Assembly: GCA_032622095.1 (NCBI GenBank)
Contig: CP136065.1
Location: forward strand, 244,899,474-244,963,473
Direction of reading: 5' to 3'
Origin: Siphonodentalium dalli
Lineage: Eukaryota; Mollusca; Scaphopoda; Gadilida; Siphonodentaliidae
Length of the DNA: 64,000 bases
Positions within the stretch are counted from its first letter, which is position 1; each line of letters begins with the position of its first letter. Below, piece after piece: positions 10,708-63,836 of this stretch. A program made the position numbers and the translations under genes. The notes beneath the pieces are model-generated. The model was not told the DNA's origin, made no database searches, and was given only the letters and a program-made list of their open reading frames with translations.

Positions 10708-11158
10708 GGTTACACTGGTGTAAATATTTCCCATAGGCTTCAATGTTAACGTTTGTTGATCTGCATCAGAGGTCAAATGGAAACTGTTCAAACTGCCTTC
10801 GGATTATGTGAGCTTGACATCTGTGGAAACTTTCCCAATAAAAAAATCAACACCGTCTAGCAGGGAATCCACTTCAAATTTTCGTTTTTTCATGACTAGG
10901 GTCAGTTCCGCACTAAAAAAATATTGTCATTTTTTCAATCACACTTAAAATTTCTAAACAGCCACAACAGACTTCACCTTTAATGAATGGGCCTCTTGGC
11001 AAATGAAGTTTGTGGGAGAATGATTCCTTGAATTTTTGTCAACAGTTTACATTTAATTCATGCAACCAATCACAGCCCAGAGTGTTTTAACTGTGAAACT
11101 CTATACTCCTCCCGCAACCGCAGGGGGAGCTGCCTATAGTATTTACACCAGTGTAACC
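10708..11158. repeat. M module, copy 1 (451 bp)
   Basis: TIR-bounded module. Reading its left end beside the reverse complement of the 59.4-kb module shows shared 'ggttacac', 'ccataggc' and 'tgttaac' blocks. Its right part shares 'caaccaatca' with that module. The two arrays are therefore related families. Confidence 0.85.
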
Positions 11159-12060
11159 TAAAGCGATAGCCCGCTTTTTCGCGGAATAATTGTAACTCCC
11201 TACATTTCTTCAGAATTGCCCATCAATGGAAAAAATGTGTTCAAAAACAATATCACCCATATGGTTCTTTATTTATCACACACAATTTAACCCCACCCCC
11301 TTTAACAAATTATTCATCAAAAAGGCACAATTTTCCACCACCAGTCATGTTCAGGCCCCATTTTCACTCAGTTTTAGGGGTCTGGTGTTGCAAACTTGGA
11401 TCAGCTATGGAAGACTGTACAATATTCTTTCCATGAGAGAACTTCTGGTGATGTGAGGTCATTGAGTCCAGATCTGATCAGCTGAGCATCAAGCGCATGA
11501 CTTTATCAGCACATTGAAGAATAAAATATGACATTTTCAGGTCTGCAAGGGTGATCCAAGATAACTGGATGTGGGTGTATATTGAATTAGTTGAATAAAG
11601 ATATGCTCTCTTTGAATTGCTGAAGCATTTTCTTAAATGTGTCCAAGTTTTAGTGCTATTAACCTTCAAATGACCATACCCACCAGTGGAAATGACACAC
11701 TTTTATGATATATATCTGTATATCACTGGCTATAAAATCCAAAATACTTGTTAGATTAGGTTCTTATAACAATTGATATATGTGTCGTTGACATGCTCAT
11801 GTTATGGGTCATTTGCATTATCATGTGACTATTACCACCTTGAATTTTTTTGAAAATACCTTGAAAAATTGGCATTTTTTATGAAAAATCTTACTATTTT
11901 TTTGGCTGATGTAAGTGAAAGAAGACATCAGCAGCAAGAATAGCCACACCAAGCATGAGATATTCATTGGACTGAAAGACCAGGCTCTGTAAAATGCATT
12001 AAAAAGCTTTAAAGTGACTCCCAGGAATCAAAAATGATAAAAAGCTATTTTTTCCCTTTA

Positions 12061-12511
12061 GGTTACACTGGTGTAAATATTTCCCATAGGCTTCAATGTT
12101 AACGTTTGTTGATCTGCATCAGAGGTCAAATGGAAACTGTTCAAACTGCCTTCGGATTATGTGAGCTTGACATCTGTGGAAACTTTCCCAATAAAAAAAT
12201 CAACACCGTCTAGCAGGGAATCCACTTCAAATTTTCGTTTTTTCATGACTAGGGTCAGTTCCGCACTAAAAAAATATTGTCATTTTTTCAATCACACTTA
12301 AAATTTCTAAACAGCCACAACAGACTTCACCTTTAATGAATGGGCCTCTTGGCAAATGAAGTTTGTGGGAGAATGATTCCTTGAATTTTTGTCAACAGTT
12401 TACATTTAATTCATGCAACCAATCACAGCCCAGAGTGTTTTAACTGTGAAACTCTATACTCCTCCCGCAACCGCAGGGGGAGCTGCCTATAGTATTTACA
12501 CCAGTGTAACC
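12061..12511. repeat. M module, copy 2 (451 bp)
   Basis: Internal copy bounded by spacer on both sides. The left junction reads ccttta|ggttac and the right gtaacc|taaag, so its flanks are not a direct duplication. Confidence 0.85.
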
Positions 12512-13413
12512 TAAAGCGATAGCCCGCTTTTTCGCGGAATAATTGTAACTCCCTACATTTCTTCAGAATTGCCCATCAATGGAAAAAATGTGTTCAAAAA
12601 CAATATCACCCATATGGTTCTTTATTTATCACACACAATTTAACCCCACCCCCTTTAACAAATTATTCATCAAAAAGGCACAATTTTCCACCACCAGTCA
12701 TGTTCAGGCCCCATTTTCACTCAGTTTTAGGGGTCTGGTGTTGCAAACTTGGATCAGCTATGGAAGACTGTACAATATTCTTTCCATGAGAGAACTTCTG
12801 GTGATGTGAGGTCATTGAGTCCAGATCTGATCAGCTGAGCATCAAGCGCATGACTTTATCAGCACATTGAAGAATAAAATATGACATTTTCAGGTCTGCA
12901 AGGGTGATCCAAGATAACTGGATGTGGGTGTATATTGAATTAGTTGAATAAAGATATGCTCTCTTTGAATTGCTGAAGCATTTTCTTAAATGTGTCCAAG
13001 TTTTAGTGCTATTAACCTTCAAATGACCATACCCACCAGTGGAAATGACACACTTTTATGATATATATCTGTATATCACTGGCTATAAAATCCAAAATAC
13101 TTGTTAGATTAGGTTCTTATAACAATTGATATATGTGTCGTTGACATGCTCATGTTATGGGTCATTTGCATTATCATGTGACTATTACCACCTTGAATTT
13201 TTTTGAAAATACCTTGAAAAATTGGCATTTTTTATGAAAAATCTTACTATTTTTTTGGCTGATGTAAGTGAAAGAAGACATCAGCAGCAAGAATAGCCAC
13301 ACCAAGCATGAGATATTCATTGGACTGAAAGACCAGGCTCTGTAAAATGCATTAAAAAGCTTTAAAGTGACTCCCAGGAATCAAAAATGATAAAAAGCTA
13401 TTTTTTCCCTTTA

Positions 13414-13864
13414 GGTTACACTGGTGTAAATATTTCCCATAGGCTTCAATGTTAACGTTTGTTGATCTGCATCAGAGGTCAAATGGAAACTGTTCAAACT
13501 GCCTTCGGATTATGTGAGCTTGACATCTGTGGAAACTTTCCCAATAAAAAAATCAACACCGTCTAGCAGGGAATCCACTTCAAATTTTCGTTTTTTCATG
13601 ACTAGGGTCAGTTCCGCACTAAAAAAATATTGTCATTTTTTCAATCACACTTAAAATTTCTAAACAGCCACAACAGACTTCACCTTTAATGAATGGGCCT
13701 CTTGGCAAATGAAGTTTGTGGGAGAATGATTCCTTGAATTTTTGTCAACAGTTTACATTTAATTCATGCAACCAATCACAGCCCAGAGTGTTTTAACTGT
13801 GAAACTCTATACTCCTCCCGCAACCGCAGGGGGAGCTGCCTATAGTATTTACACCAGTGTAACC
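13414..13864. repeat. M module, copy 3 (451 bp)
   Basis: Right-terminal copy, followed directly by the ATTA that matches the left flank of copy 1. Confidence 0.85.
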
Positions 13865-13868
13865 ATTA

Positions 13869-14670
13869 GCCGGTGCTCTCTCTGATTTTTAAGTTTTGGA
13901 GTTTTGGAACAGTTTATCCTGGAATTATATATTATAATTGGAAGATATAGCTTTTACTCGATTGATGGGTGTTGGAATTTTAACAATCGATTTAGGCGTT
14001 TGTAAATTATGGCCGTTAGAAGTGGGGAGGTATCTAAAAAGCGTTACTCCCTTATTAATAGTTATTACATATGTATTGTTTATCGATGCACTTTTTAAAG
14101 TGGCGCGCTCGTTTTAAACTCATATATTTTTTTATTTATATTTGACTCGTTTTAACGACACGCCCATGTTATGGCTTTTCTTCATATTATTGATGAAGAC
14201 AAATAAATAATTTAATTTTATTTTATTTAATTCAATTGATATTTAAAGGTGCGATAGAACATCAAACAAGTTGATATAATTGTATACATTTATAGTCTGT
14301 TAGCCATATGTCAGGCAGTGGCAGGCAATATATTTTTGTTTCCAGTTTTCATATTGATTAGCATAATGTGATATGGTGTATCTAGTTTTATATTTATTGC
14401 TTTAAAAAATTTAATGTTTGCTAAAAACTTTTTATGATTCACAGCAGGTAAGTACCAAATTTGTTTTCGGTTTAATTAATAGTTTATTGTATTATGTTCA
14501 GTTGTTATGTTTGATTTAAATCATCTTGTTCAATCATTTTTGTAAGTAACTCAGAGTCACTGTTTTTTTTTTTTTTCGGGTCGCAATCTGGAACAGTGGT
14601 GAATTCTATGCATTCAATAGATGGTTCACTATGGGTTCCGAAGCGACAACCCACTCCTAAATAACACTAT
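13869..14670. other. No recognisable feature
   Basis: Very AT-rich. A strong splice-donor-like CAG|GTAAGT occurs near 14446 without a supporting exon. A poly-T tract is near 14563-14577. Confidence 0.5.
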
Positions 14671-15265
14671 ACCGAACACTATTTGGTTGTTCTCGTCGAT
14701 GATAAGCTCAAATTTGATGTACATATCAATACAGAGTTCAACAAAGCCAACCAATTACTCGGTATAATCAACATAACCTTCACACACTTAGACATCCCGA
14801 CATTCAGAGCCCCATATATCAGCATGGTCCGGCCTATTATCGAATACTGCAACACAATCTGGAGCCCATACATGAAGTACCAAAGTATAACACTTGAAAA
14901 CATTTAACGAAGGGCGACAAAGTTAGTTCCACAGTTAAGACAAGAGTCATACACAGAACGATTAATAAGACTAAACCTGATGTCATTGAAATTGAGGATA
15001 TTCAGAGTTGACCTCATAGAGGTATATAAGAACCTAAATGGACGCTATAACGTTGAGCCAAGCATGTTATTCCAGAAAAGTTTATCTAATATGACTAGAC
15101 GTCACGACCAAATCTCCAGATGCCATCAGTTCGAAAGGACACAAGGAAGTATTTCTTCACAAACCATGTTATACAAGACTGGAACTCTCTCCCACAATTT
15201 ATATCAGCTGGAAGACTAGACCAGAAAGTCACCAGTTCAAATCTTACATAGACTCCTACATTTGA
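14671..15265 (+). pseudogene. Decayed non-LTR retrotransposon RT C-terminal region
   Basis: The frame from about 14671 reads LVDDKLKFDVHIN, then KANQLLGIIN, VRPIIEYCNTIWSPY and, after a stop, RRATKLVPQLR. These are typical of the thumb and C-terminal part of CR1/Jockey-type reverse transcriptases (established family pattern, recalled rather than searched). A TAA at 14905-14907 sits where CAA (Gln) would be expected. A frameshift near 15130 then moves the match (KYFFTN, DWNSLPQFISAGRLD) to another frame. The tail FKSYIDSYI and its stop end at 15265 after a further shift. The catalytic palm is absent, so this is a 5'-truncated, dead copy. An AATAAA at 15373 may be its polyadenylation signal. 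Confidence 0.8.
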
Positions 15266-15400
15266 CGACCGGAAGTATGCGTTTGATCATAACACTTACT
15301 GGATATCCACGATGTACTGGAAGGACATTGTAACTCTAAATGTTAAACTTTTTCAATGCTGTTATATATACTAATAAAAACTCAATGTCGTTTGAATGTT
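15266..15400 (+). mobile_element. Probable 3' UTR of the LINE fragment
   Basis: Non-coding sequence directly downstream of the RT fragment, with AATAAA at 15373-15378. The element boundary is not defined because I could not find a target-site duplication. Confidence 0.4.
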
Positions 15401-15479
15401 TGTTTGGCGATCAAATGGCTGAGCCAGCATAGCTGAATATGGGGTAATTTGAAAATACGCTCTTTAAAAAATCGTTAGT

Positions 15480-16250
15480 TGTGGGTTGCACCCCACAAGT
15501 TACTCAAACAAAAGATCGCATCCCACAAGTATTCATAGGTATGTGCGGTCACCCCACAAGTATACTCTGGCCAGTGCGTCCCGTCCGTGCGTCCGTGCGT
15601 GTAGAGTTATAACTCCAGTAATGATCATCCGAGTTGATTGAACTTGGTTTGTAGGTGCTCTGCAATTCTGTGTTTGATCCGATGTTCTTTTATGGAGTTA
15701 TTTCCCTTTTTTTTCACATAGAAAATTTCTCACTTTTTCGATTTCCGGAAATTTGGATCCTCTAATTGCAAATACCGTTTTTATGCGGATCAGTCATATC
15801 AAAATACAGGTTGAGTTCGAATTTGATCCGATGATTTTTCCTAGAGTTATGGACTTTTTTTTTCGACATAAAAAATTCAATTTTCTTCTTTTTTCTTTGG
15901 TTTCCGGATGATATCTCAAGATTGGACTGTACAATTGAACATTTTTTTGTGAGTCATTGATATCAAAATACAGGTCAAGTTCGAATTTGAGTTTGATCAG
16001 ATGATTTTTCTCAGAGTTATGGGCCTTTCGACTTTGAAAAACATTTTTTATAATTTTCTGTATGAGGGTATATACCTTCAAGGTGTAATCAACTCCTCCT
16101 ACAGTTTTAATCGTAGATATTTGAAAGTTCAGAGTATTTTGACCCACATATTGGAGATGTGCAACATGTATATAGATGACGGAAAAATTATTTTTTTACG
16201 GAATTATTAACCCTTTCGACTTAGAACATTTCAACATTTTTGTTAATTTC
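15480..16250. repeat. Diverged ~160-bp tandem units
   Basis: Starts with three 'ccccacaagt'-type short repeats (15485-15555) and a 'gtccgtgcgtccgtgcgtg' run. Units with 'tatcaaaatacagg', 'gatttttc' and 'agagttatgg' follow at about 15796 and 15958. Open frames (69 and 117 codons, on opposite strands) are not recognisable proteins. Confidence 0.55.
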
Positions 16251-16589
16251 TTTAACAAAGCGGCATCGACTTGCCACGTTGTCGGGGGACACTGTGGTCG
16301 GCCGACCTTTTATTTGTTTTTTGTTTGTCCCCCCACCCCCAATCTTCTTTAATCGAGCAACGCCGAGTACCGCAGCTAGTAATATATAAGTCAAAATTTA
16401 TGATAAAGTTTGAAAAAGAAGTCATGATGAAAAAATATGTCAGCATTCTAGTTCTCTAATATAAATATAGATGTAATTGCAGTGAACTACAATAATAAAC
16501 AGACGTACTTCCAATTATTTCGCACAATTTGGGCGTTTCTCTGATGGCTGTTTTTCATCTGACGTGTGTGTCGGATAAATGATGTGGAG

Positions 16590-16695
16590 GATTTATGTAA
16601 ATGTTAGCCCAAACAACATTTCCAAGTAACGATGGTTTTGTTGTTTATTTTGAGGAATAATACCGCATCAGATGAATTCAGCCCAAATATGTTAA
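16590..16695 (+). repeat. Dispersed repeat, copy 1 (partner at 32.4 kb)
   Basis: About 100 bp including 'gttagcccaaacaacatt', 'gaggaataataccgcatcag' and 'gaattcagcccaaatat'. A reverse-complement copy is at 32404-32515. Confidence 0.7.
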
Positions 16696-17010
16696 CAGTT
16701 GTCGTGTAAAATTTTGCAGTAGGTTAGCGTTATTTAGTATTTGTGGATGTCCTTTAACATGGGGAAAATAGACTACTGCGCTTGAACGAGCATGTGAGTT
16801 TGTCGTTTTTAATGTATAGCAACTTGATAATCAATAACAGAGGCATTCTCTGTCAAATACAGTCGCTCTATTTACGGTATTAATTGCGGAACTTTCTAAA
16901 GTAACTTGAGAGTGAAACTACGCGTAAACGAGTACATACTGTAAATTATAGAAGGTGCCGGAATCGGCCTAATCGCCCCAGGGCCAACTCGCCCCAGTCG
17001 ACGTGTGCCA
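16696..17010. other. No recognisable feature
   Basis: Unique-looking sequence. A local 'cgccccagggccaactcgcc' repeat lies near 16974. Confidence 0.45.
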
Positions 17011-17020
17011 ATTCGGTACT

Positions 17021-17480
17021 CACTATAAAATGTATCCGAGGATGAGGCCGGCTCGGAATAAAAGGTGTATACGGGTGTTATATAGCGTTTGGTCCGTTGT
17101 TTCTCAATGAATATTATTTAAATTTGGTGTATATGTCCGGGCTGGGACATGGAATACAACAACGTTTGAATTGTTTTTAAATTTACAAATATGTTGATTT
17201 TATTCATTTTTTTTTCGTTCTGAAACACACTATAAAGTGTATGCGACCGGCTCCAAAATAAAAGGTGTGAGCGGACTTGATGTCGCATTATCCTCTTTGT
17301 TTATAAATGGACAAGACTGAAATATAGTACATATGTGCGGGTTATGACATGGACAACATTAATGTTTGAATTGTTCTTAAATTCACAAATTTGTTGATTT
17401 TATTCAACTTTTCGTTCTTTCATTCTATAAAGTGTAAACGGTCGGCCCCATTCAAAAGGTTAAGCGGCTTATGTGCTTAG
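17021..17480. repeat. Diverged ~200-bp tandem repeat, 2.3 copies
   Basis: Units begin near 17021, 17225 and 17425 with 'ctataaa(a/g)tgta'. They share 'aataaaaggtgt' and 'acaaat(a/t)tgttgatttta'. No coding frame. Confidence 0.65.
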
Positions 17481-17600
17481 TGTTATATGTAATTGGATTA
17501 ACTAATTGGCGACTCTAAACTATTGTGTTTTGGGGTATTTGAACTTTTTTTGTGAAATAATAATTGAGGACGTGAATACATTTATTTTAAATGATAACTT

Positions 17601-17921
17601 AATGATAATAAACACATCCAATATAATAACGAACACGAGACGTACATAATTTATAAACTGTTAACAAAAGATATCAAATTCAATACATGACAAAGATGAC
17701 TCAGTGGAGTTTATAAAGTGAACATAAAAACATTGAGGTAAGAATCTTTTTAAGGAATGCAACTTTATTTAATGATAATAAACACATAAATTAAAATAAC
17801 AAACATGAGACATACATGATTTATAAACTGTTAACAAAAGATATCAAATTCAATACATGACAAAGATGACTCAGTGAAGTTTATAAAGTGAACATAAAAA
17901 TATTAAGGTAAGAATCTTTTA
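17601..17921. repeat. 172-bp tandem duplication
   Basis: 'aatgataataaacacat' starts each copy (17601 and 17773). The copies share a nearly identical ~110-bp right half ending 'aaggtaagaatctttt'. This is a fairly recent duplication. Confidence 0.8.
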
Positions 17922-33823: not shown

Positions 33824-34730
33824 GACTTACTTCTCGAACTCTCGAACTCTCAACTTGGGATGACCATCGACAATATCGCATGCTCGGCCCCTACCACAGC
33901 AGACGATATAGCAGTTGTATCGCTCACGAAAACTGGTCTCGATGCAATGCTGTCCATCTGCCACACGTACAGTGCTAAGTGGAGGTTCCAGTTTTCAACT
34001 ACCAAAAGCAAGATCGTTGTCTTCAACGAGACAGCTCCTCAGCATGAACAGCATAGGACATGGCACCTCGGCGGAAATTATGTCAGTAAGGCCACAGAAT
34101 GCACACATCTCAATCACTCAAGGAAAGTTCAATAATACATCCACCCGATCAGAGCTCATAGCCCGCAAAATGAGAAATACATACTTCTCTTTGGTGGGCA
34201 AGCAAATGACTCAATCATGTTCTCCGTCAGTGATGGCCAAACTATTGAAATGTATTGTTCTTCCAAAGGCGCTAAATGGATGTGAATTACTGCCTGTGGA
34301 CAACGACTCTGCTATCTTGACAATTGAAAGGTCATTCCAACTATGCGTCAAACATCTGCAATCACTCCCAACTAGGACACCAACTGCTGTGGCCCTCATT
34401 CTCCTTGGATTGATGCCGGTTGAGAGAGAAATCCATATCCGGAAACTGTTCTTCCTTGGGAACCTCGTGCACCTACCGGTTGGACATCAGACACCTCTAA
34501 GAATATTCCTGGTCAAGGCTTATCAGCATTTACTTTTCAAGCGCCCCAGTTCCGGATTTGTTAGCGACACTTTCATGCTATTAGAAAAATATAATCTCTC
34601 AACGATTCTGACTGACTTTTTGAATAACGGAATATTCCCATCTAAATATGAATGGAAGAAAATGGTCCGTGAAAAGGTCCAAGCAGACTACTGTTCATCT
34701 TGGCATCGATTAGCGACACTCAATCTCTAA
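33824..34730 (+). pseudogene. 5'-truncated LINE: RT palm end plus C-terminal domain
   Basis: From about 33824 the frame reads NDLLLELSNSQLG, then APTTADDIAVVS at 33887-33922. This is the catalytic F/YADD box in a variant form with both aspartates kept. GLDAMLSICHTYSAKWRFQF and TKSKIVVFN follow, typical of non-LTR reverse transcriptases. A one-base frameshift near 34110 moves the match to a second frame, which continues ARKMRNTYFSL, VLPKALNGCELLP, LMPVEREIHIRKLFFLGN and FPSKYEWKKMV to a stop at 34728-34730. The RT N-terminal part and the endonuclease are missing, so the copy is dead on arrival. The exact clade is not assigned; similar tails occur in lophotrochozoan LINEs (recalled). Confidence 0.8.
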
Positions 34731-47735: not shown

Positions 47736-48774
47736 ATCGATTTATGACCGCGACAAAACGATTCGAAGTCGGATAGATCAAAGTAATTTAGGACATCCAC
47801 CTCATGTACATTTAAATTTGCCACCGACACAAATAACGCCTCCCACCCATATATATACAATTATTGTAAACCGGGAGAGGGGCTAAGAAAGTTTGTGTAA
47901 CTTGTCCCCAATCCCTTTTGTATAATTACAAGTAAAATTTGTGTAAACGCAAATTCTGAATGGCCGATAGCTGCTAATGTTATACTAGTAGTTTTTTATT
48001 CACCAATCATCGATCACTGATTGAAAGACATATTTTGAATGGAGAACGCCGTAAAATACGTCACTATTGCCAGGAGTCGCGTAATCCAGTCAAACGTAAC
48101 TTTGTTTTCCATAGATACACTTAACAGGACGATGTTCAGGTGCAGTTACGAGTAACCACAGGGAACATATACCCAGATCAATCTCTTTGATAAGCCGACG
48201 AATATCCTAACGGATGTACGTTGCTAAATTTCTGTATTAAAATTAGTTTCTGTATGTAAGGGATTCCCTCCATTTCATTGGAGAGTGGCACAGACTACCC
48301 GCGAATTCATTGGTTTATGGCACAACTTCACATATCGGAGGTCAATGACGTGTTGGCAATTTTCCCACACATTGTCAAACTCAACTATATTGTTGGAAAA
48401 CTGAATCCAGGGGATATCTCCGTAATTCATTTTACTCATCGCAATATAGGAGACATCATCTTCGAGTTTTGATCAGTCAACGATATTCGTGACTGATTAT
48501 TCTTTCGCATCTTGTTGTATTTATAACTATTTCTATATACCACGATTCTCACAAACATATACTACGCCAGGAGTGCACTCCATCTTTGGAAACAGTTTAA
48601 TGCGTCATGTTGGGAATGCCGCGTCATCGTAAAAATTAAATATAGTGGACACATCTAGAGACGCACATACATTAGGATATTCGTCGGCTTTTCAAAGAGA
48701 CTGTACCAAGTTGTGAGATCACACCAAAAAGGATATCTCACTTCAAAGCATGCAATGTGGATAAAAAAAATTCT
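47736..48774. other. No recognisable feature
   Basis: No gene or repeat is recognised before the minisatellite. Confidence 0.45.
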
Positions 48775-50420
48775 CCCTTGGAGCCGCCCTCTCCCTGGGA
48801 CCATATCTCTCCCTGTTTCCAAATGGGACCACCCCTCTCGTTTCCGCATGGGACCATCCCTCTCCCTTGTTTCCGTCTGGGACCATCCATCTACCTGGTT
48901 CTACCTGAACTATTTCTCTGCCTGGTTCCATCTGGGACCACATCTCTCCCTGGTTCCACCTGGAACTATTTCTCTGCCTGGTTCCACCTTGGACCACATC
49001 TCTCCCTGGTTACGCATTGAATCACCCCTCTCCCTGGTTCTACCTGGGACCACATATCTCACTGGTTACGCATGGGACCACATCTCCCTGGTTACGCGTG
49101 GGACCATCCCTCTCTCTGTTTACGCATGGGACCACATCTCTCCCTGGTTACGCATGTGACCACATATCTCACTGGTTCCGCATGGGACCATCCCTCTCTC
49201 TGGTTCCGCATGGGACAATCCCTCTCCCTGGTTACGCATAGGACCACATCTCTCCCTGGTTCCACCTGGGACCACATCTCTCCCTGGTTACGCATGGTAC
49301 CATCCCTCTCTCTCTGGTTACGCATGTGACCACATCTCTCCCTGGTTACGCATGGGACCATCCCTCTCACTGGTTACGCATGGGACCACATCTCTCCCTG
49401 GTTCCACCTGGGACCACATCTCTCCCTGGTTACGCATGGGACCATCCCTCTCTCTCTGGTTACGCATGGGACCACATATCTCCCTGGTTACGCATGGGAC
49501 CATCCCTCTCACTGGTTCCGCGTGGGACCACACCTCTCCCTGTTGACGCATGGGACCATCCCTCTCTCTCTGGTTACGCATGGTACCACATCTCTCCCTG
49601 GTTACGCATGGGACCATCCCTCTCTCTCTGGTTACGCATGGGACCACATCTCTCCCTGGTTATGCATGGGACAATCCCTCTCACTGGTTCCGCATGGGAC
49701 CACACCTCTCCCTGGTTCTGCATGGGACCACCCTCTCACTGGGACCACATCTCTCCCTGGTTCCGCCTGGGACCATCCCTCTCACTGGTTGCGAATGGGA
49801 CCACCCCTCTCCCTGGTTCCGCGTGGACCACCCTCTCCCTTGTTTCCGCCCGGGACCATCCCTCTCCCTGGTTCCGCGTGGGACCACCCTCTCACTGGGA
49901 CCACATATCTCCCTGGTTCCGCCTGGGACCATCCCTCTCACTGGTTGCGAATGGGACCACCCCTCTCCCTGGTTCCGCATGGACCACCCTCTCCCTTGTT
50001 TCCGCCCGGGACCATCCCTCTCACTTGGTCCGCATGCTGGGACCATCCCTCTCCCTGGGACCACATCTCTCCCTGGTTACGCATGGGACCACCCTCTCCC
50101 TGTGACCACTTCTCTCCCTGGTTCCGCGCAAGGGACCATCCCTCTCCCTGGGACCACATCTCTCCCTGGTTACGCATGGGACCACCCTCTCCCTGTGACC
50201 ACTTCTCTCCCTGGTTCCGCGCAAGGGACCATCCCTCTCCCTGGGACCAGATATATCCCTGGTTACGCATGGGACCACCCATCTCCCTGTGACCACATCT
50301 CTCCCTGGTTACGCATGGGACCACCCCTCTCCCTGTGACCACATCTCTCCCTGGTTACGCATGGGACCATCCCTCTCCATGGTTACGTATGGGACCATCC
50401 CTCTCCCTGGTCACACGTGA
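48775..50420. repeat. ~30-bp minisatellite with higher-order blocks
   Basis: Roughly 55 copies of a unit with 'ctccctggttacgcatggga' and 'ccacatctc'. From 49730 onward larger blocks repeat (about 170 bp near 49735-50000, about 108 bp near 50090-50230). All three plus frames and the minus frames are open for up to 262 codons. The open frames come from the unit and are not genes. Confidence 0.95.
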
Positions 50421-50790
50421 TCTTTCGTGGATCGTGGTCGATAAACCCGCTAGAATATCGATATGTTGTCCCAAGTGAGATCTTTTATTGTGAGAACAAT
50501 TAAAACGCATTGTGGGCGAGTGGGGGGATCGATGGTGCGTTAAGCTAATTATTCCTCAGATAAACCGGCAGATTAGATGATAATTGGAGCATATACTTCA
50601 TAGTAGGTCACCCGCATCAACCATAAACTATATGTTCGCTATTAAGAGATGAAATTGTGCTGCAGCTCAATTAAATATCGAGCAATTAAAGGTGCATATG
50701 ACATTCAATTCAACGTATTTGTTGTGTCCACAAAAAAAAACACGGTACATTGTTAAACTCAGTTATTATACTAAACCCTCTCATATCGCA
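50421..50790. other. No recognisable feature
   Basis: Unique-looking sequence between the minisatellite and the hairpin MITE. Confidence 0.45.
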
Positions 50791-50794
50791 CATA

Positions 50795-51011
50795 TACAGT
50801 AATGCCCTAATTAATCGACTCCATAACCACAGCAGAATTATGGGTAATTTTTCAGGATTTAGTTGGAAATATGGCTTGTTGTGATTCATCGGAAAGCTCT
50901 CAGTGAGAGATTTCCGATGAATGACAACAAGCCATATTTCCAACTAAATCCTGAAAAAATACCCCTAATTCTGCTGTGAGCATGGTGTCAATTAATTATG
51001 GCATTACTGTA
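50795..51011. mobile_element. 217-bp hairpin MITE, same family as 29.6 kb
   Basis: Starts TACAGTAATGCCCTAATTAA and ends with its near reverse complement. The arms contain 'ccacagcagaattatgggta' and a longer inner stem than the 29.6-kb copies, with a loop of a few bases around 50903. Termini in TA suggest a Tc1/mariner-type element (inferred). Confidence 0.85.
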
Positions 51012-51030
51012 CATTGAGAACAGTGTTGTT

Positions 51031-52180
51031 AGAGTGGCACCGTGTTCACATTATGAATGTTATCAGCCTGGTCGCCCGTTAGAGTGGCACCGTGTTCACA
51101 TTATGAATGTTATCAGCCTGGTCGCCCGTTAGAGTGGCACCGTGTTCACATTATGAATGTTATCAGCCTGGTCGCCCGTTAGAGTGGCACCGTGTTCACA
51201 TTATGAATGTTATCAGCCTGGTCGCCCGTTAGAGTGGCACCGTGTTCACGTTATGAATGTTATCAGCCTGGTCGCCCGTTAGATTGGCACCGTGTTCACG
51301 TTATGAATGTTATCAGCCTGGTCGCCCGTTAGAGTGGCACCGTGTTCACGTTATGAATGTTATCAGCCTGGTCGTCCGTTAGAGTGGCACCGTGTTCACG
51401 TTATGAATGTTATCAGCCTGGTCGCCCGTTAGAGTGGCACCGTGTTCACATTATGAATGTTATCAGCCTGGTCGTCCGTTAGAGTGGCACCGTGTTCACA
51501 TTATGAATGTTATCAGCCTGGTCGCCCGTTAGAGTGGCACCGTGTTCACATTATGAATGTTATCAGCCTGGTCGCCCGTTAGAGTGGCACCGTGTTCACA
51601 TTATGAATGTTATCAGCCTGGTCGCCCGTTAGAGTGGCACCGTGTTCACATTATGAATGTTATCAGTCTGGTCGCCCGTTAGAGTGGCACCGTGTTCACA
51701 TTATGAATGTTATCAGCCTGGTCGCCCGTTAGAGTGGCACCGTGTTCACATTATGAATGTTATCAGCCTGGTCGCCCGTTAGAGTGGCACCGTGTTCACA
51801 TTATGAATGGTATCAGTCTGGTCGCCCGTTAGAGTGGCACCGTGTTCACATTATGAATGTTATCAGCCTGGTCGCCCGTTAGAGTGGCACCGTGTTCACA
51901 TTATGAATGTTATCAGCCTGGTCGCCCGTTAGAGTGGCACCGTGTTCACATTATGAATGTTATCAGCCTGGTCGCCCGTTAGAGTGGCACCGTGTTCACA
52001 TTATGAATGTTATCAGTCTGGTCGCCCGTTAGAGTGGCACCGTGTTCACATTATGAATGTTATCAGCCTGGTCGTCCGTTAGAGTGGCACCGTGTTCACA
52101 TTATGAATGTTATCAACCTGGTCGCCCGTTAGAGTGGCACCGTGTTCACATTATGAATGTTATCAGCCTGGTCGCCCGTT
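51031..52180. repeat. 50-bp satellite, 23 copies
   Basis: An exact 50-bp period starting with 'agagtggcaccgtgttcaca' and continuing 'ttatgaatgttatcagcctg' 'gtcgcccgtt'. Twenty-three units show only scattered substitutions (for example 'ttcacg' in units 5-8). It begins 20 bp after the hairpin MITE. There are no spacers of differing sequence. Confidence 0.97.
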
Positions 52181-52735
52181 AACATTTTGGTTTCCAACTG
52201 ATAACTCCATGCAGTTGACATTTAATCGGAAACAATGTTCGTTTCTCAACCAAAACAACAGGTTGAGTTCGAATATTGGTTCGGTCCAATGATTTTGCAT
52301 GACGCCCGCTTCGACTTTGGTTTCGGACAGATAACTCCGTGCGGTTTGGTTTTCTCGAACGAAATAAAAGTTTGGCACGTGCAGATCTCATCCAAACATA
52401 CATGCAGGTCACGTGCGGCTCTCATCCAAACATACATGCAGGTCATGTTCCAATGATTTTTGCTTGACTTACGACCGTTTTTCGACTTTCGGATGTGAGA
52501 TAAATTGTCATAATTTTGTTGAATCTTTAGCATTTTCATAGATGTTGCAATGGATAAATGCTTCAGAACAAAACTGAACATGGCTATTAAGACGCATGAT
52601 TTTAGTTTAAACATATTAATAACATTATATTGTTGTTTCCGTTTGCAGTGACCAAAACATCAAAAGTGCAGAGTTTATTGAACTCTGAATCCGAAATTAC
52701 CTTTAATCACCTATTACTCCGTTCGGTCCACATAC
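52181..52735. repeat. Dispersed repeat debris with 34-bp duplication
   Basis: 'gatttt(g)gcatgac' and 'ataactcc(a/g)tgc' words recur. 'ctcatccaaacatacatgca' plus 'ggtca' occurs twice (near 52388 and 52422). The overlapping opposite frames of up to 122 codons are not recognisable. Confidence 0.5.
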
Positions 52736-52741
52736 ACAGAT

Positions 52742-52905
52742 AATATGCCATGACTATTTACTCTATCTTACGCCCGTAGATATCATACTCCACTATGCAG
52801 TACATGGAAGTTTATAACATTGAAAAAAAACGGTGCAGGTGATATGTTTCTAAGTTAATATCTGTTAAAAACATATTATGGACTTGTTCGGGTGCATGAA
52901 ATCGA
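52742..52905. mobile_element. Left part of an interrupted 525-bp TIR element
   Basis: 'ttactctatcttacgcccgt' and 'gtgcaggtgatatgt' match the left third of the 45855-46379 element. The right part resumes at ~54376. Confidence 0.6.
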
Positions 52906-52995
52906 TAAGGTAGAATTCTACTAATTAACATCGCAGAAAATCTCAATCAAATCGACCATTCCACTCCATAGAAAACATCGCCTGAACAACGCGCA

Positions 52996-53209
52996 ATTGT
53001 AAATATTTACATCTCGATTCGGGACGCAACAAACGGCGATAAACCAACGCAAATAATTTCGCCATCGATAGTTATTGAATTTAATTGATATATAACAATG
53101 ACGGCGTGTGTTGTAAATTTGGATTTATATTCGTAAAAATAACTACTTTGAGCAAGATTATTTAACATTTCTATTTGATCACTCAACCGGAGTGTTTCAC
53201 ATCACTTTA
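52996..53209 (+). repeat. Dispersed repeat, copy 2 (partner at 27.0 kb)
   Basis: Matches the reverse complement of 27001-27230, from 'tgtaaatatttacatctcga' to 'gtttcacatcacttta', and abuts the TTAA at which the MITE pair is inserted. Confidence 0.7.
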
Positions 53210-53210
53210 A

Positions 53211-54361
53211 AGGGGTACTGTACGCCAAATGTTGTTGTTGGTTTCTATAGTCTCCGAGTCGGAGAATAAGGTAACAATTTTTCCATTATTTGAAAGTCTG
53301 TTGAGTACGAAGTCATGTTACGGATGACAAATTTAACGGAATGCAAAAATACAAATTGTCGTTGTCGAGTTATTTTTGTAAAGTTTTCAACCAAATGAAT
53401 CAAATAAAAGTTATATTATATGCATACTAGTCCCATATAATCATTTAAGTTATTGTATCGTCGCTAGTCAGTGAGTGGCTTGGGTGTTCTCCCCGTATCA
53501 TCATAATATTTTAAGCGATAGTGTGTGCGATCGGTTTAACAATCCAGTATCCCTCAATTACTGTTTTCGATTACTGTAATTCGTAATTTAATTGACGCCA
53601 TTTTATGGCTCCAGTCATAAATTCAATTCATATCAAATTATTAACTTTTAAATTATTAAATTTTAAGATAGCCTATTAACCTGAGCGTTTACAGAATACA
53701 TCTTCGACTCAAATTACTTATGTTTCTATATATTATCGATATTAGATCGTTGTTGTCACCGGAAATTTAATGAAAATGGCGTACAGTATCCCTTTTATAA
53801 TATAATTCACTGTCGGTGAATTTAAAGGGGACTGTATGCCAATTTCAATAAATTCCCGGTAATAACAATGATATCGAAGATGTATTCTGTAAACGTTCAG
53901 GTTAACATGTTATTTTAAAATCAAAGTTAATAATTTGTTATATATTCAATTGATGGCTCGAGCCTTAATTAAATTACGAATTTCCGTGTACAAGACGTAA
54001 TAAAATTAATTGACGGAAAGTGGATTGGGCTACGCGTGGCACACATGATCGTGTAAACAAATATGTTGATACGGGGCGTAAACTCAACCCACTCACTGAC
54101 TAGTGACTATACAATAACTTAAATGAGTATATATATGGGACTAGTGTGCATATAATCTAACATTAATTTGATACATTTGTTTGAAAACTGTAAACAAAAT
54201 TACTCTATATATGGGGATAGTTCTATTTTCGGATTCCGGCTAATCTTCCATCCGTAACATAATTACTTCGTACTCAACATACTGTCAAATAATGGAAATC
54301 TGGTTACCTTATGAAGCAGAGACTAAAGAAACCAACAACAACATTTGAGAACCGTATCCCT
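53211..54361. mobile_element. Head-to-head pair of TTAA-type MITEs
   Basis: The outer ends 'aggggtactgtacgcc' and 'aaccgtatccct' are inverted and flanked by TTAA (53207-53210 and 54362-54365). The region consists of two inverted arms, about 53211-53792 and 53826-54361. Each arm has its own 'ggcgtacagtatccc'-type inner end. The arms pair over most of their length ('caaatgttgttgttggtttc', 'cagtgagtgg', 'cgaagatgtattctgt'). The TTAAAGG-like start points to the Kolobok/T2 type (inferred). Confidence 0.75.
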
Positions 54362-54371
54362 TTAATTGAAC

Positions 54372-54662
54372 GATTGAAGTGACTTTGTGAGCGATTTTGC
54401 TTTGCATCATTTAATTTCATGGAATTTCTCCAGGGTAATTAATTCAATGTTTATTGCAATATCGGCTCACAAAAGTCACAAAAATGCATGCAACCACGAG
54501 CTGGGACCACTCCCTACTGTGAAGTAAATTATTGAGGAACAAGTATTAACTAAGAAATATATTTCCTGCCTTGTTTGTTGAATGTTACAAATTTTCTGTC
54601 AGGTGTTGTTCTGATATGATCTCTATACGAGAGAGCTATAAAAGAGAACCATGGCATGATCC
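54372..54662. mobile_element. Right part of an interrupted 525-bp TIR element
   Basis: 'gaagtgactttgtgagcgat', 'aattaattcaatgtttattg' and 'gaggaacaagtattaac' match the 46060-46240 region. The end 'accatggcatgatcc' matches the right terminus of the intact copy. Confidence 0.65.
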
Positions 54663-54812
54663 ATAGGTCCATACATAGTTGTGGGTTCACCCTTATTGCA
54701 CTAGTTCGCACATAATTTATAGAGACAGTGCTGCATAGCGACATCATGACATACTGTGAGCATATGATGCACATCGGCAGCACACTCAATGACATGTATA
54801 TATTCTCACAGA

Positions 54813-54897
54813 CCCCTGGGGAAAATTACTAAAATACCAATAAAGACTATTACACTGGTATAGTCTATATTGGTATTTTAGTCATTTTCCCCAGGGG
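54813..54897. repeat. 38-bp-stem hairpin
   Basis: 'cccctggggaaaattactaa' at 54813 begins a 38-bp arm that pairs with 54860-54897. There are two mismatches and a 9-nt loop (tacactggt). No second copy is seen in the window. Confidence 0.85.
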
Positions 54898-54989
54898 CCT
54901 ATGTTTATTCTCACGTAATATGCACATAAGTTAGAAAAAACGTTTGTATTTTTAACCCATAAAGAAAATAATCTCTCAATCTTTCTCAA

Positions 54990-54998
54990 TATCACACT

Positions 54999-55039
<41 letters not shown>

Positions 55040-55216
55040 ACTCCCTTCTCCCACTCTTCTCTCTTTCACCCTCTATCTCACCCTCTCTTTTCTCTCTTTC
55101 TCTCTCACTCTCTCTTTCATTCTCTCTCACCCTCTCTCCATTCTCTCTCTCTGTTCTCTCACTCTCCTTTCTCTCTTCCTCTCTCATACTCTCTCAATTT
55201 CTCTCTTCTCTCTCAT

Positions 55217-55249
<33 letters not shown>

Positions 55250-55638
55250 ACTCTCTTCTCTCTCACTCTCTTCTCTCAATCTCTCTCACCCTCTCTGTTC
55301 TCTCGTTTTCTCTCTCACTCTCTCTCATTCTCTATCAATCTCTCTCTTCTCTATCATTATCTTCTCTCACTCTCTTCTCTCCAAATCTCTTTCTGTGTGT
55401 CTCTCTCTCTTCTCTCTCTCTCTCTCTCCCTTCTCTCTCTCTATCTCCCTTCTCTCCGTTCTCTCTCCCTCTCTTCTCTCTCCCTTATCTCTCTCAATCT
55501 CTCTCTCTTCTCTCTCTCCTCTCTCTCTCCCTTCTCTCACTCTCTCTTCTCTCACGCTCTTTTTTCTCTCAATCTCTCTCACCCTCTGTCTCACCATATC
55601 TGCTCTCTCTTTCTCTCTCTCATTCTCTCTCAATCTCT

Positions 55639-55678
<40 letters not shown>

Positions 55679-55760
55679 TCTTCTCTCCAAATATCTTTGT
55701 CTCTCTCTCTCTTCTCTCTCTCACTCTCTATCTCTCTCTCTCGCACATTATCTCTCTATT
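54990..55760. repeat. (CT)-rich microsatellite
   Basis: About 770 bp of CT dinucleotides with interspersed TTCTCT and CACTCT variants. The 107-151-codon Leu/Ser-rich or Arg/Glu-rich frames here are low-complexity artefacts. Confidence 0.97.
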
Positions 55761-58100
55761 TAAAGCTTGAGAGTCACTTTAATATGCACATCACTAAGGA
55801 TGGATATTGGAGTTTGTGCAAAAAGTGGGGTAGTGTGGAAAACGTGTGTTGAAAAGTTGAAAAAGGCATGGCTCGGATAGTGTACTCATACGTGGTAGAA
55901 GATGTCAGAAGGGTTGGTCTTCACGACCTTGTTATTTCGTGCAATTATATTGTAGCAAATTTAATGGGCGTGGCCAAACACTGATGCCTGTGGAAAACAT
56001 TTAGTTTCTTCTAACCTGTGTGCCGGCTGGTAGCTAGCATTCAGTGCACCGATATCGATGACATAATAGTGGCTATAGACGCGCCTCTATACTCACAGCA
56101 GAATATACTGTGAACATATGCTGCATATCGCCAACACATTCATGTACTCCGGCTGGTAGTGCATGGCCTTGGGTGCGTTAATATCGATGACTCACAAAGT
56201 ACACATATCGTAATAACGACCAACTCCAACACGCGCGATGTACATACGTTAATGAAATCACTCAGTATCAAACCAAAAGTTCGTATAGGTCAATACTGAC
56301 TCAATAGCATAGAGACACGGTCCGTATCGTACGGCTGTGTTGCTCATGCTGTGATCCGACGGACGCCATCCCGGGAAATGTATAAATAGGGAGATTCGGT
56401 CGATTTTAAGCTCGATGGTTATGGAGAGAATAAACGACCGATAAAGTATAGGGCGTTATTAGAATCCCCGATGTGGAGGACGTCCCGCATATAGCAGTAA
56501 TACAACAGCAGTCGAAATCCGGTTGTTTCGTATAAGTCGAGACTTGCATTTACGATTCGCATAATATGTGTGTTAGTAGAAAGGTGCATTCACAGCCGTT
56601 AGCACGAAGTAAATAAACCGGGCGTTACTTTTGCTTACATTTAAAGTGGTCGATTCTTCCGCTTCATGCATGTGGACACAATACCCTTTATATCTCTGAG
56701 TCGCTTTTACACCGGGTGGTGAGATCGACCCTACACAGCAACGCGGACTATAGAAGGTTGTTTACGTTGGTGACGCTGTTCAGCGAATAGGATTATCAGC
56801 ATTTTTTTTCTCCTGATCAAGTCTTGGCACGATATTAGATATACGGCTGTTAAAACTGCGTGTTAGCTTCTCTAAGGATTAAGCTGTTGTTTAACTTGTC
56901 AACATAATGTAAGTATATATTAATGCAAGGGACACATGTTTTAATTAACGGTTAATCGGATTATATCAGTATCATATCCGAAAGTTTCTGGATGCAATAT
57001 CGATTCATTATGTATCTCAAAGCTGATATAGTTATTTTGTTTTATTTTTATTTTTGTTTGTAAACATCTTTTATTGACAAACAAAGCGGATGATTTGAGA
57101 CACAAGTTTTACAACTTACCAATGGTCTCTCTCCCATCATAATATAATGTTTTCACACAATATGAACATAAAATACAGGTTACACACAAACATGATATAT
57201 ATACTTCATATGTATAACATCGTTACACTTCCCAATGTGGGATAATCTTGAGCCAACCTGAATGGTAAGGATGGTTATTTCAATTATTGGCGGGGGTGTG
57301 ATTCATCTCAGTGGGTTGGTGGTTCATGTGCATTGTCGTTTCATATAGTCACAAACGGGTTGAATTGATGTTGTGAAAACACATGTACAACATGAAGTTA
57401 CTCTCATTTTGCAGCAGAGGTTCTGGATATAATCATATACGTATATATAGTTAATGTTCGAATCGCGATATAGATATATAGGTAATACATTACTAAGTTG
57501 TCAAAACTGTATATTAGCCAGCAATCTGTTTGATGTTGAGACAATTAAGGTTTTCATTATGCCAGAGAGGAGTGCACTCTAACCATGAGCCAATGCTTGA
57601 TCTTACAATATCTATAGTTGCGAACGTTTGTTTGTTTGTCTGATATATATATTAACAAAAGACCACCAGAGTGCATGCTCCAAAAGATTCTAACAGGAGT
57701 ATATATTTTACGAGGAAGATAATGCACGGTCCAGGTAAATCATTTATAAAGTGACGCTGTCGGTGCCAGGAGCAGAAAAATGGTGAGGGGTAACAAAATC
57801 GATGGAATTGTTTTGTGTTGCCGAGTACCGCCAAATTTGTAAATAATCATCTCCATGATATGCGGACTCAAATGGTGGGACATATACTGCCAAAATGTTA
57901 CCGTTTGAGTCAGGGGGATTTTTTTTTTTTTTGGTTGAATTTTGTTGGGTATGCTTAAGCATGCTATAGCGAATTTAAAAACAAACTGGATAAAACCTTA
58001 GGGGCATGTTATAACTCAAACTATCACCAAGTATTCATAGTAATAATTTTGATGCCCATGAAAAACGTAAGATTCCCTAGCACTAAACCTACAAAATAAG
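55761..58100. other. No gene recognised
   Basis: A TATAAATA at ~56381 and a GTAAGT at ~56909 could be read as promoter and splice donor, but no coding exon joins them. Frames of 60-72 codons near 57.7-57.9 kb have no recognisable domain. Confidence 0.5.
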
Positions 58101-58102
58101 TC

Positions 58103-58310
58103 TGGCACTGAAAGAGTTAAAGAATATAAGAAGAAATTATTAAAATTGTAAAGAATAATAACAAATGATGAAAAATTGTTAGGCCAATGCATTCTCTTAT
58201 ATATGCGAGGCGACCTATGGTCGACTCGCATATATAAGAGAATGCATTGGCACAGGGTATATGGGTTGATACAAAAATCGGACTTGGCACTGAAAGGGTT
58301 AAAGAATCTC
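58103..58310. repeat. Palindrome copy with direct-repeat flanks
   Basis: The 69-bp palindrome (58183-58251) matches the copies at 2.0-2.6 kb, here with a core identical to the copy at 2514. 'ggcactgaaag(a/g)gttaaagaat' flanks it on both sides (58103 and 58286). Confidence 0.85.
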
Positions 58311-58539
58311 AAGTTGCATGGTGCCGCTCGAGTCAGGGATGGGGACGGGTCACCAATAATTATTGATAAAAGGTATTTTTGCCGACGATATTCGTAAATG
58401 TATATATAATCATCTCGGTGATTCGAATCTGATTGAGTACCTTTAACTGTCAACCGTGATTTTCCGAAACCTCTCAACTACATAGGTTCAGTTGGAGTTC
58501 TACCGCACTCGTTTATTAATTACATGTTAAGTCTGATTG

Positions 58540-59378
58540 AGTCTGGTACAGTGCCATACCAAATGATCGGACTGACAAAGCGCCATACCAAATAATCCGG
58601 CTGGTACAACGCCATACCAATTGATCCGAAAGGTACAGCGCCATAACAAATAATCCGATTAGTACAGCGCCATACCAAATGATCCGACCGATACAGGGCC
58701 ATACCAAATGATCCTACTGATACAGCGCCATACCAAATTATCAGACTGACACAGTGCCATACCAAATGATCCGACCGATACAGGGCCATACCAAATGTTC
58801 CGACTGATACAGCGCCATACCAAATTATCAGACTGACACAGTGCCATACCAAATGATCCGACCGATACAGGGCCATACCAAATGATCCGACTGATACAGC
58901 GCCATACCAAATTATCAGACTGACACAGTGCCATACCAAATGATCCGGCTGGTACAGCGCCATACCACCAAGTGATCCGACCGGTGCTCGTTTATTAAAT
59001 CTGATTGAGTCTGGTACAGCGCCATGCCAAATGATCCGGCTGGTACAGCGCCATACCAATTGATCCGAAAGGTACAGTGTCATATACCCAACGATCCGAC
59101 TGGCGCAGCTCCATATCAAATAATCCGATTAGTACAGCGCCATACCAAATTATCGGACTGACACAGCGCCATACCAAATGATCCGACTGGTACAGCGCCA
59201 TACCACCAAATGATCCGACCGGTACAGCGCCATACCACCAAATAATCCGACCGGTACAGCGCCATACCAAATTATCAGACTGACAAAGTGCCATACCAAA
59301 TGATCCGGCTGGTACAGCGCCATACCACCAAGTGATCCGACCGGTGCTCGTTTATTAAATCTGATTGAGTCTGGTACA
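58540..59378. repeat. 30-bp satellite with 360-bp higher-order period
   Basis: About 28 units of 'ctggtacagcgccataccaa' plus 'atgatccga'. A block from 58941 to ~59020 recurs exactly 360 bp later. Minus-strand open frames (up to 199 codons) are repeat shadows. The array resumes after the composite element, at 63837. Confidence 0.93.
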
Positions 59379-59830
59379 GGTTACAAACAACTAATTATAT
59401 AGAGTCACTCTTCTTGAATTTGTGTAGGGAAACTCGAGTCAGCATAAAAAAAAATTCTGGCTGCTGATTGGTTGATTATCATTGAGGGAAATATCCCTAA
59501 TCGGGAACAGAAAATCATAGCCTACGTAAATATGGCGATCGTGTATGTTTAGATGTCCAGGAAGAGTCTGGTGGCGTCCAGAAGTTACGGAAGGGGTCTG
59601 GGTATTTTTATGCTGCTGATTTTTTTGCAGTAAATGGGGTAGTTGTGGAAATGCAAGATTATCGTTTGAAAACAATACCGAAAAGGGCGCGTTTGTTGTC
59701 ACATACTGGTGCAGAGGATGACGTTCTAAGGGAAAATTGACCACTTGAAGTTCAACTAGGTCAAACCCATGGCCGGCGGGACTTTTAGTTAACACTGTCG
59801 CCTATGGAAAATAATTAGTTGTGTGTAACC
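59379..59830. repeat. M module of array 2, copy 1 (452 bp)
   Basis: Left-terminal module. Reading its reverse complement beside the module at 10708 shows shared termini, 'ccataggc', 'tgttaac' and 'caaccaatca' blocks in the same order. Confidence 0.85.
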
Positions 59831-62800
59831 TATAGGCAAAAAATTCACATTTTTCAAATATCGTTCAGGGCAGCGAATTTAGGAACACTGATAAACAAAG
59901 ACTCACTTGTTTTGTTGAGTTATTATATTTTCACGCCCTACAGACCCATTTTCAGATTATGCGAGACATTTATTAACCCTCTGTCGCCGGAACTTCAACT
60001 TTTTCCGGAGGCGAAATTTTCTGAAAATCATCCATTTTGTGCATATGGGTGGACCTTTAATGTTCAAAATAGCACGGTCGAGGTGATGGAAGTTTCTCTG
60101 AGAGAAATTCGACTCAAACTCCTAAAAGTACTAAAATTTAAAGGGACATCCGCCTATCATTGAACCAAACCATCATCGAATGGTGAAATTTTGAGGGGGG
60201 GGGGGTCTATTTCAAATGCAATTAAACATTGTATTGTTCAAAATTAGATAAATTCCTTAAAAAGTATGGTTGATATACGTGACTAGTTTTCAAAACTTAT
60301 ACATATTACTTTCTATCGTGTGCGTTATGCACGCGAGTCGGTTTTTACAAATTAAATTATGATGAAAAACCATGAATTTGGGGTGTGGTCACATTTGTGG
60401 TCATAATATCCCCATTAGTGAGTGGATGGACATGGGACATGCGACACTGTGCAGTATATATGTCTATGACAAGCCTAACATGAGACATTAGTATCTTTTC
60501 TACTAAACTGCGCTTCCAGATTTATCAGGATTCTATTACTGGTGTTATTTCTTACCCCAAAACAATTGTTAATTTTAAAACGGGGTATGTGGGTTAAATG
60601 ACCGCTGGGAGATAATAGGATGCCCAATGACTCCTATATTTCTATTGTATCACGGTAAAGCTTTTTTTGTAAAATTGGCGCGGTTTACACGATAAAACTG
60701 CAATTTACTTTTCAATTATAGGTTACAAACAACTAATTATATAGAGTCACTCTTCTTGAATTTGTGTAGGGAAACTCGAGTCAGCATAAAAAAAAATTCT
60801 GGCTGCTGATTGGTTGATTATCATTGAGGGAAATATCCCTAATCGGGAACAGAAAATCATAGCCTACGTAAATATGGCGATCGTGTATGTTTAGATGTCC
60901 AGGAAGAGTCTGGTGGCGTCCAGAAGTTACGGAAGGGGTCTGGGTATTTTTATGCTGCTGATTTTTTTGCAGTAAATGGGGTAGTTGTGGAAATGCAAGA
61001 TTATCGTTTGAAAACAATACCGAAAAGGGCGCGTTTGTTGTCACATACTGGTGCAGAGGATGACGTTCTAAGGGAAAATTGACCACTTGAAGTTCAACTA
61101 GGTCAAACCCATGGCCGGCGGGACTTTTAGTTAACACTGTCGCCTATGGAAAATAATTAGTTGTGTGTAACCTATAGGCAAAAAATTCACATTTTTCAAA
61201 TATCGTTCAGGGCAGCGAATTTAGGAACACTGATAAACAAAGACTCACTTGTTTTGTTGAGTTATTATATTTTCACGCCCTACAGACCCATTTTCAGATT
61301 ATGCTAGATATTTATTAACCCTCTGTCGCCGGAACTTCAACTTTTTCCGGAGGCGAAATTTTCTGAAAATCATCCATTTTGTGCATATGGGTGGACCTTT
61401 AATGTTCAAAATAGCACGGTCGAGGTGATGGAAGTTTCTCTGAGAGAAATTCGACTCAAACTCCTAAAAGTACTAAAATTTAAAGGGACATCCGCCTATC
61501 ATTGAACCAAACCATCATCGAATGGTGAAATTTTGAGGGGGGGGGGGGGTCTATTTCAAATGCAATTAAACATTGTATTGTTCAAAATTAGATAAATTCC
61601 TTAAAAAGTATGGTTGATATACGTGACTAGTTTTCAAAACTTATACATATTACTTTCTATCGTGTGCGTTATGCACGCGAGTCGGTTTTTACAAATTAAA
61701 TTATGATGAAAAACCATGAATTTGGGGTGTGGTCACATTTGTGGTCATAATATCCCCATTAGTGAGTGGATGGACATGGGAAATGCGACACTGTGCAGTA
61801 TATATGTCTATGACAAGCCTAACATGAGACATTAGTATCTTTTCTACTAAACTGCGCTTCCAGATTTATCAGGATTCTATTACTGGTGTTATTTCTTACC
61901 CCAAAACAATTGTTAATTTTAAAACGGGGTATGTGGGTTAAATGACCGCTGGGAGATAATAGGATGCCCAATGACTCCTATATTTCTATTGTATCACGGT
62001 AAAGCTTTTTTTGTAAAATTGGCGCGGTTTACACGATAAAACTGCAATTTACTTTTCAATTATAGGTTACAAACAACTAATTATATAGAGTCACTCTTCT
62101 TGAATTTGTGTAGGGAAACTCGAGTCAGCATAAAAAAAAATTCTGGCTGCTGATTGGTTGATTATCATTGAGGGAAATATCCCTAATCGGGAACAGAAAA
62201 TCATAGCCTACGTAAATATGGCGATCGTGTATGTTTAGATGTCCAGGAAGAGTCTGGTGGCGTCCAGAAGTTACGGAAGGGGTCTGGGTATTTTTATGCT
62301 GCTGATTTTTTTGCAGTAAATGGGGTAGTTGTGGAAATGCAAGATTATCGTTTGAAAACAATACCGAAAAGGGCGCGTTTGTTGTCACATACTGGTGCAG
62401 AGGATGACGTTCTAAGGGAAAATTGACCACTTGAAGTTCAACTAGGTCAAACCCATGGCCGGCGGGACTTTTAGTTAACACTGTCGCCTATGGAAAATAA
62501 TTAGTTGTGTGTAACCTATAGGCAAAAAATTCACATTTTTCAAATATCGTTCAGGGCAGCGAATTTAGGAACACTGATAAACAAAGACTCACTTGTTTTG
62601 TTGAGTTATTATATTTTCACGCCCTACAGACCCATTTTCAGATTATGCGAGACATTTATTAACCCTCTGTCGCCGGAACTTTTTCTGAAAATCATCCATT
62701 TTGTGCATATGGGTGGACCTTTAATGTTCAAAATAGCACGGTCGAGGTGATGGAAGTTTCTCTGAGAGAAATTCGACTCAAACTCCTAAAAGTACTAAAA

Positions 62801-63384
62801 TTTAAAGGGACATCCGCCTATCATTGAACCAAACCATCATCGAATGGTGAAATTTTGAGGGGGGGGGGGTCTATTTCAAATGCAATTAAACATTGTATTG
62901 TTCAAAATTAGATAAATTCCTTAAAAAGTATGGTTGATATACGTGACTAGTTTTCAAAACTTATACATATTACTTTCTATCGTGTGCGTTATGCACGCGA
63001 GTCGGTTTTTACAAATTAAATTATGATGAAAAACCATGAATTTGGGGTGTGGTCACATTTGTGGTCATAATATCCCCATTAGTGAGTGGATGGACATGGG
63101 ACATGCGACACTGTGCAGTATATATGTCTATGACAAGCCTAACATGAGACATTAGTATCTTTTCTACTAAACTGCGCTTCCAGATTTATCAGGATTCTAT
63201 TACTGGTGTTATTTCTTACCCCAAAACAATTGTTAATTTTAAAACGGGGTATGTGGGTTAAATGACCGCTGGGAGATAATAGGATGCCCAATGACTCCTA
63301 TATTTCTATTGTATCACGGTAAAGCTTTTTTTGTAAAATTGGCGCGGTTTACACGATAAAACTGCAATTTACTTTTCAATTATA

Positions 63385-63836
63385 GGTTACAAACAACTAA
63401 TTATATAGAGTCACTCTTCTTGAATTTGTGTAGGGAAACTCGAGTCAGCATAAAAAAAAATTCTGGCTGCTGATTGGTTGATTATCATTGAGGGAAATAT
63501 CCCTAATCGGGAACAGAAAATCATAGCCTACGTAAATATGGCGATCGTGTATGTTTAGATGTCCAGGAAGAGTCTGGTGGCGTCCAGAAGTTACGGAAGG
63601 GGTCTGGGTATTTTTATGCTGCTGATTTTTTTGCAGTAAATGGGGTAGTTGTGGAAATGCAAGATTATCGTTTGAAAACAATACCGAAAAGGGCGCGTTT
63701 GTTGTCACATACTGGTGCAGAGGATGACGTTCTAAGGGAAAATTGACCACTTGAAGTTCAACTAGGTCAAACCCATGGCCGGCGGGACTTTTAGTTAACA
63801 CTGTCGCCTATGGAAAATAATTAGTTGTGTGTAACC
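63385..63836. repeat. M module of array 2, copy 4 (452 bp)
   Basis: Right-terminal module, followed directly by TACA and resumed satellite sequence. Confidence 0.85.

Follow-up and report, generated by a model that had tools for sequence, protein, structure and literature searches.

Two arrays with the anatomy of KolobokP

Kojima and Bao described in 2022 (Mob DNA 13:24, PMC9587614) a group of DNA transposons named KolobokP, with 228 published families, in which an internal region (INT) lies between two long terminal direct repeats (LTDRs). The LTDRs are about 450 or 660 bp long, each with its own terminal inverted repeats (TIRs) of 11-18 bp, the termini read RR...YY, and the target duplications measure 3-5 bp; solo LTDRs and multimers of the form (LTDR-INT)n-LTDR also occur. 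The autonomous copies code for a DDD/E transposase of Kolobok type and, in most cases, also for a His-Me finger nuclease, a relative of I-PpoI, which leaves a 4-base overhang. Nonautonomous families of oysters are 1,738-3,261 bp long, and the INT of KolobokP-1_MeMe starts and finishes with TATA. Kolobok in general targets TTAA, whereas the KolobokP lineage is described as being without strong target preference. Here we report two arrays, at 10708-13864 (array 1) and 59379-63836 (array 2) of a 64,000-nucleotide stretch of the scaphopod Siphonodentalium dalli (the window: GCA_032622095.1, contig CP136065.1, positions 244,899,474 to 244,963,473 of the forward strand). From their anatomy alone, both are very probably nonautonomous DNA transposon multimers of KolobokP type, (LTDR-INT)2-LTDR and (LTDR-INT)3-LTDR respectively.

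The first-pass annotation, made from the letters of the sequence, had read both arrays as one design of alternating modules and spacers, and the coordinates bear this out. Array 1 consists of three LTDRs of 451 bp and two INTs of 902 bp (repeating unit 1804 bp), array 2 of four LTDRs of 452 bp and three INTs of 890, 892 and 868 bp (repeating unit 1794 bp). All LTDRs of an array are identical (3/3 and 4/4), as are both INTs of array 1. The INTs of array 2 look like truly separate copies, because copy 2 differs from copy 1 by 3 substitutions and a G run longer by 2 bases, and copy 3 has lost 22 bp relative to copy 1. The inverted ends noticed earlier (GGTTACA...TGTAACC) are present in both families; they pair at 19/19 bp in array 1, and in array 2 at 19 of the first 20. 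All 7 LTDR copies carry GG...CC termini, not TG...CA, as the annotation had also said.

Set beside the published group, the arrays share LTDRs of about 450 bp with TIRs of their own, termini of the RR...YY kind (GG...CC), a short duplication round the whole insertion (ATTA and TACA) and multimers (n=2 and n=3) in which neighbouring units share an LTDR. Their repeating units of about 1.8 kb fall within the length range given for nonautonomous KolobokP families, and the INT of array 2 is TATA-ended like that of KolobokP-1_MeMe. The proposal that the arrays represent an undescribed transposon type has to be given up, the same architecture having been published as KolobokP; rather than a new type, they are probably two nonautonomous families of that group, to which they add what look like two multimeric members. 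By a term check, "Kolobok" does not occur in the main text of PMC11136912.

Several observations weigh against this assignment. The TIRs, at 19-20 bp, are 1-2 bp longer than the maximum of 18 bp stated by Kojima and Bao, and the duplications ATTA and TACA are not TTAA, unlike those of Kolobok in general; the latter leaves KolobokP possible, because no strong target preference is reported there. In the window, neither a transposase nor a His-Me nuclease was seen, and a Pfam scan covering 9 of the 29 open frames gave no transposase; autonomous KolobokP encodes such proteins. No open frame of at least 120 aa was present in the INTs of either array. The forward comparison of the two INTs lies somewhat over chance (8/300 shuffles), and since so few shuffles equal it, the INTs might be related after all, through a very ancient common origin. 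Likeness to the 228 published families was judged by their description. A 120-aa open frame in the LTDR of array 2 had a sub-threshold Pfam match (E 0.036, 13.9 bits against a required 33), which we read as chance.

Target-site duplications and relation of the two families

The first-pass annotation had placed a 4-bp duplication outside each array, and this stands: the outermost 4-mers are ATTA/ATTA in array 1 and TACA/TACA in array 2, and no fifth base matches at either side. At the spacing of array 1, a 4-mer match is found at 294 of 60643 window positions (0.5%), and at that of array 2 at 240 of 59342 (0.4%), so that both would be expected jointly at about 2 in 100,000. Within the arrays, the LTDR edges read TTTA-LTDR-TAAA (array 1) and TATA-LTDR-TATA (array 2). 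In-place duplication of two separate LTDR insertions predicts that the 4-mer outside the left end equals the first 4 bases of the INT, and the 4-mer outside the right end the last 4 of the INT. The outer 4-mers are unlike the inner ones; therefore such a duplication fails to explain the layout, and we infer that each array was inserted as a single unit.

Array 2 lies at the margin of a satellite with 29-bp units (58543-59345, about 27 copies), a remnant of which continues beyond the array at 63837-63866. The search for an empty site that the annotation had recommended was successful here, as a paralogous site within the satellite is identical, without gaps, at 46/50 positions to the joined flanks with one TACA. 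Compared with the satellite, the joined flanks scored 42 with one TACA, 37 with two and 33 with none. This control, made for array 2, directly supports the 4-bp duplication; it shows from within the window that the multimer, or its founder, was inserted with a duplication of 4 bp.

The modules of the two arrays had been called diverged homologues in opposite orientation. This holds for the ends and subterminal blocks: the global score of the array 1 LTDR against the reverse-complemented LTDR of array 2 was 32.1, equalled in 0/300 dinucleotide shuffles, and the two agree at 33/43 positions over the first 43 bp and at 21/43 over the last 43. It does not hold for the interior (columns 46-345), where 136/300 shuffles equalled the score. 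In the opposite orientation the score was 9.5 (equalled in 2/300 shuffles), a level that the palindromic ends would produce by themselves. Both families carry GTTAAC at exactly position 38, within the left subterminal block, and a CAACCAATCA block near the far LTDR end. Judged from these alignments, the LTDRs of the two arrays are related, with the relation confined to subterminal blocks, and represent two diverged families, in line with the earlier view that two related families keep the same layout. The retention of subterminal blocks only, in LTDRs otherwise so diverged, narrows the sites at which a transposase or nuclease might act.

For the INTs, homology over the whole length is not claimed (global scores equalled by 22/300 and 8/300 shuffles in the two orientations; local scores of 36.0 and 47.5 against shuffle means of 37.7 and 39.1, with maxima of 56.0 and 55.5 in 200 shuffles). 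The final 15 bp before the LTDR agree at 12/15 positions between the arrays, and among 111888 15-mer pairs sampled, this one included, only 7 are as good, although this INT end was picked after inspection and the opposite end agrees at 4/15. The INTs themselves gave only a weak alignment as TIRs (score 10 each).

Proposed mobilisation and alternative explanations

A DDD/E transposase of the Kolobok superfamily, provided in trans by an autonomous copy elsewhere in the genome, would bind the LTDR ends and move the segment lying between the outermost ones. The first 43 bp or so of the LTDR, common to both families, would be its likely recognition region. Additional LTDR-INT units may arise when LTDRs cross over unequally, or when an LTDR-INT circle inserts into an existing LTDR. 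That the LTDRs inside each array are identical agrees with amplification or homogenisation in the recent past. The His-Me finger nuclease of the family perhaps stimulates the gain of units, as Kojima and Bao proposed for exchange between LTDRs; by their own statement that proposal awaits experimental validation (PMC9587614). It is tempting to see in the conserved left block with GTTAAC (together with the CAACCAATCA block) a putative nuclease site driving multimer formation, because its central TTAA resembles the 4-base overhang left by I-PpoI, but we consider this quite unlikely; the GTTAAC block could simply lie within the transposase-binding region.

A layout of this kind might also come about if two miniature inverted-repeat transposable elements (MITEs) of another superfamily had been inserted in direct orientation about 0.9 kb apart and their outer ends had later mobilised the whole as a macrotransposon. 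DNA transposons with 4-bp target duplications are known, e.g., Sola and Chapaev. Two observations agree with such an origin: no homology is recognisable between the INTs of array 1 and those of array 2, as if unrelated host DNA had been trapped, and the 4-mers adjoining the LTDRs are AT-rich at all junctions. It would, however, require two accidents with nearly equal modules (451 and 452 bp) and spacers (902 and 890 bp), both of them multimeric, in one 64-kb window, and it leaves aside the 12/15 agreement of the last INT bases (with the reservation on the choice of that end given above) and the match of LTDR length and RR...YY termini with the group as characterised in PMC9587614. We therefore regard it as very unlikely. 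Bacterial composite transposons are comparable insofar as they, too, have an internal segment bordered by two short elements, each complete in itself, and move as a whole by their outer ends; they differ in that no transposase was recognised in the LTDRs here, in the multimers, and in that the repeats of the window do not appear to be bacterial.

The resemblance to long terminal repeat (LTR) retrotransposons, including the nonautonomous terminal-repeat retrotransposons in miniature (TRIMs), lies in the direct terminal repeats, the tandem arrays with shared repeats and the short target duplications. Such elements, expanded to tandem LTR-internal-LTR arrays, would give the same gross layout, and LTR elements can also produce 4-bp target duplications, as at the flanks of both arrays. 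TRIMs are also known to form tandem arrays, as PMC9587614 mentions. The arrays differ in ending with GG...CC rather than TG...CA and in the long inverted ends (19-20 bp) of each repeat; moreover, inspection of the junctions by eye, without tRNA comparison, revealed neither a TGG-type primer site after the LTDR nor a polypurine tract before it. An origin from retrotransposons of this kind is thus exceedingly improbable. Hardly more credible is an assembly artefact that inflated the copy number of one LTDR-INT-LTDR insertion: the copies of array 1 are all identical, so that their number is not confirmable from the sequence itself, but the three INT copies of array 2 differ from one another, and the LTDR-INT-LTDR core with its outer duplications stands in either case. 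Nonautonomous KolobokP multimers remain our preferred explanation for both arrays.

Feature coordinates and other repeats of the window

Table 1. Components of the two arrays and associated sites (positions within the window; TSD, target-site duplication).
Feature	Start	End	Strand	Remarks
Left TSD, array 1	10704	10707	.	ATTA
LTDR copy 1, array 1	10708	11158	+	451 bp, perfect 19-bp TIR
INT copy 1, array 1	11159	12060	+	902 bp, TAAA...TTTA
LTDR copy 2, array 1	12061	12511	+	same as copy 1
INT copy 2, array 1	12512	13413	+	same as copy 1
LTDR copy 3, array 1	13414	13864	+	identical to other copies
Right TSD, array 1	13865	13868	.	ATTA
Possible degraded third LTDR end	55974	56016	-	GGTTAGAAGAAACTAAATGTTTTCCACAGGC...; 30 bp, 83%, E 0.007; weak
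Paralogous empty target site for array 2	58994	59043	+	in 29-bp satellite; 46/50 identical to joined flanks, one TACA
Left TSD, array 2	59375	59378	.	TACA
LTDR copy 1, array 2	59379	59830	-	452 bp
INT copy 1, array 2	59831	60720	-	890 bp, TATA...TATA
LTDR copy 2, array 2	60721	61172	-	identical
INT copy 2, array 2	61173	62064	-	892 bp; 3 substitutions, G run longer
LTDR copy 3, array 2	62065	62516	-	identical
INT copy 3, array 2	62517	63384	-	868 bp; 22-bp deletion
LTDR copy 4, array 2	63385	63836	-	identical
Right TSD, array 2	63837	63840	.	TACA

Outside the two arrays, a 43-bp match to the LTDR start (GGTTAGAAG...TTTTCCACAGGC) on the minus strand at 55974-56016 adjoins a long CT-rich repeat and is perhaps a degraded third KolobokP LTDR; no partner end was found on the plus strand within 48392-56417 (at most 5 edits). 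Viral contigs, scanned for exact copies of the 19-bp LTDR end of array 1 only, gave 0 matches, and a search of the window against Rfam gave 0 matches at gathering scores.

The plus strand contains at 33912-34730 an open frame of 272 aa with no Pfam family at E up to 0.1, which resembles the C-terminal portion of polyproteins from invertebrate retroelements. Besides the satellite next to array 2, a 50-bp tandem repeat at 51028-52181 (23 copies, 98% matches) is very homogeneous, and the long minisatellites at 6059-7159 (20-bp units) and 48796-50411 (units of about 28 bp) yield spurious long open frames.
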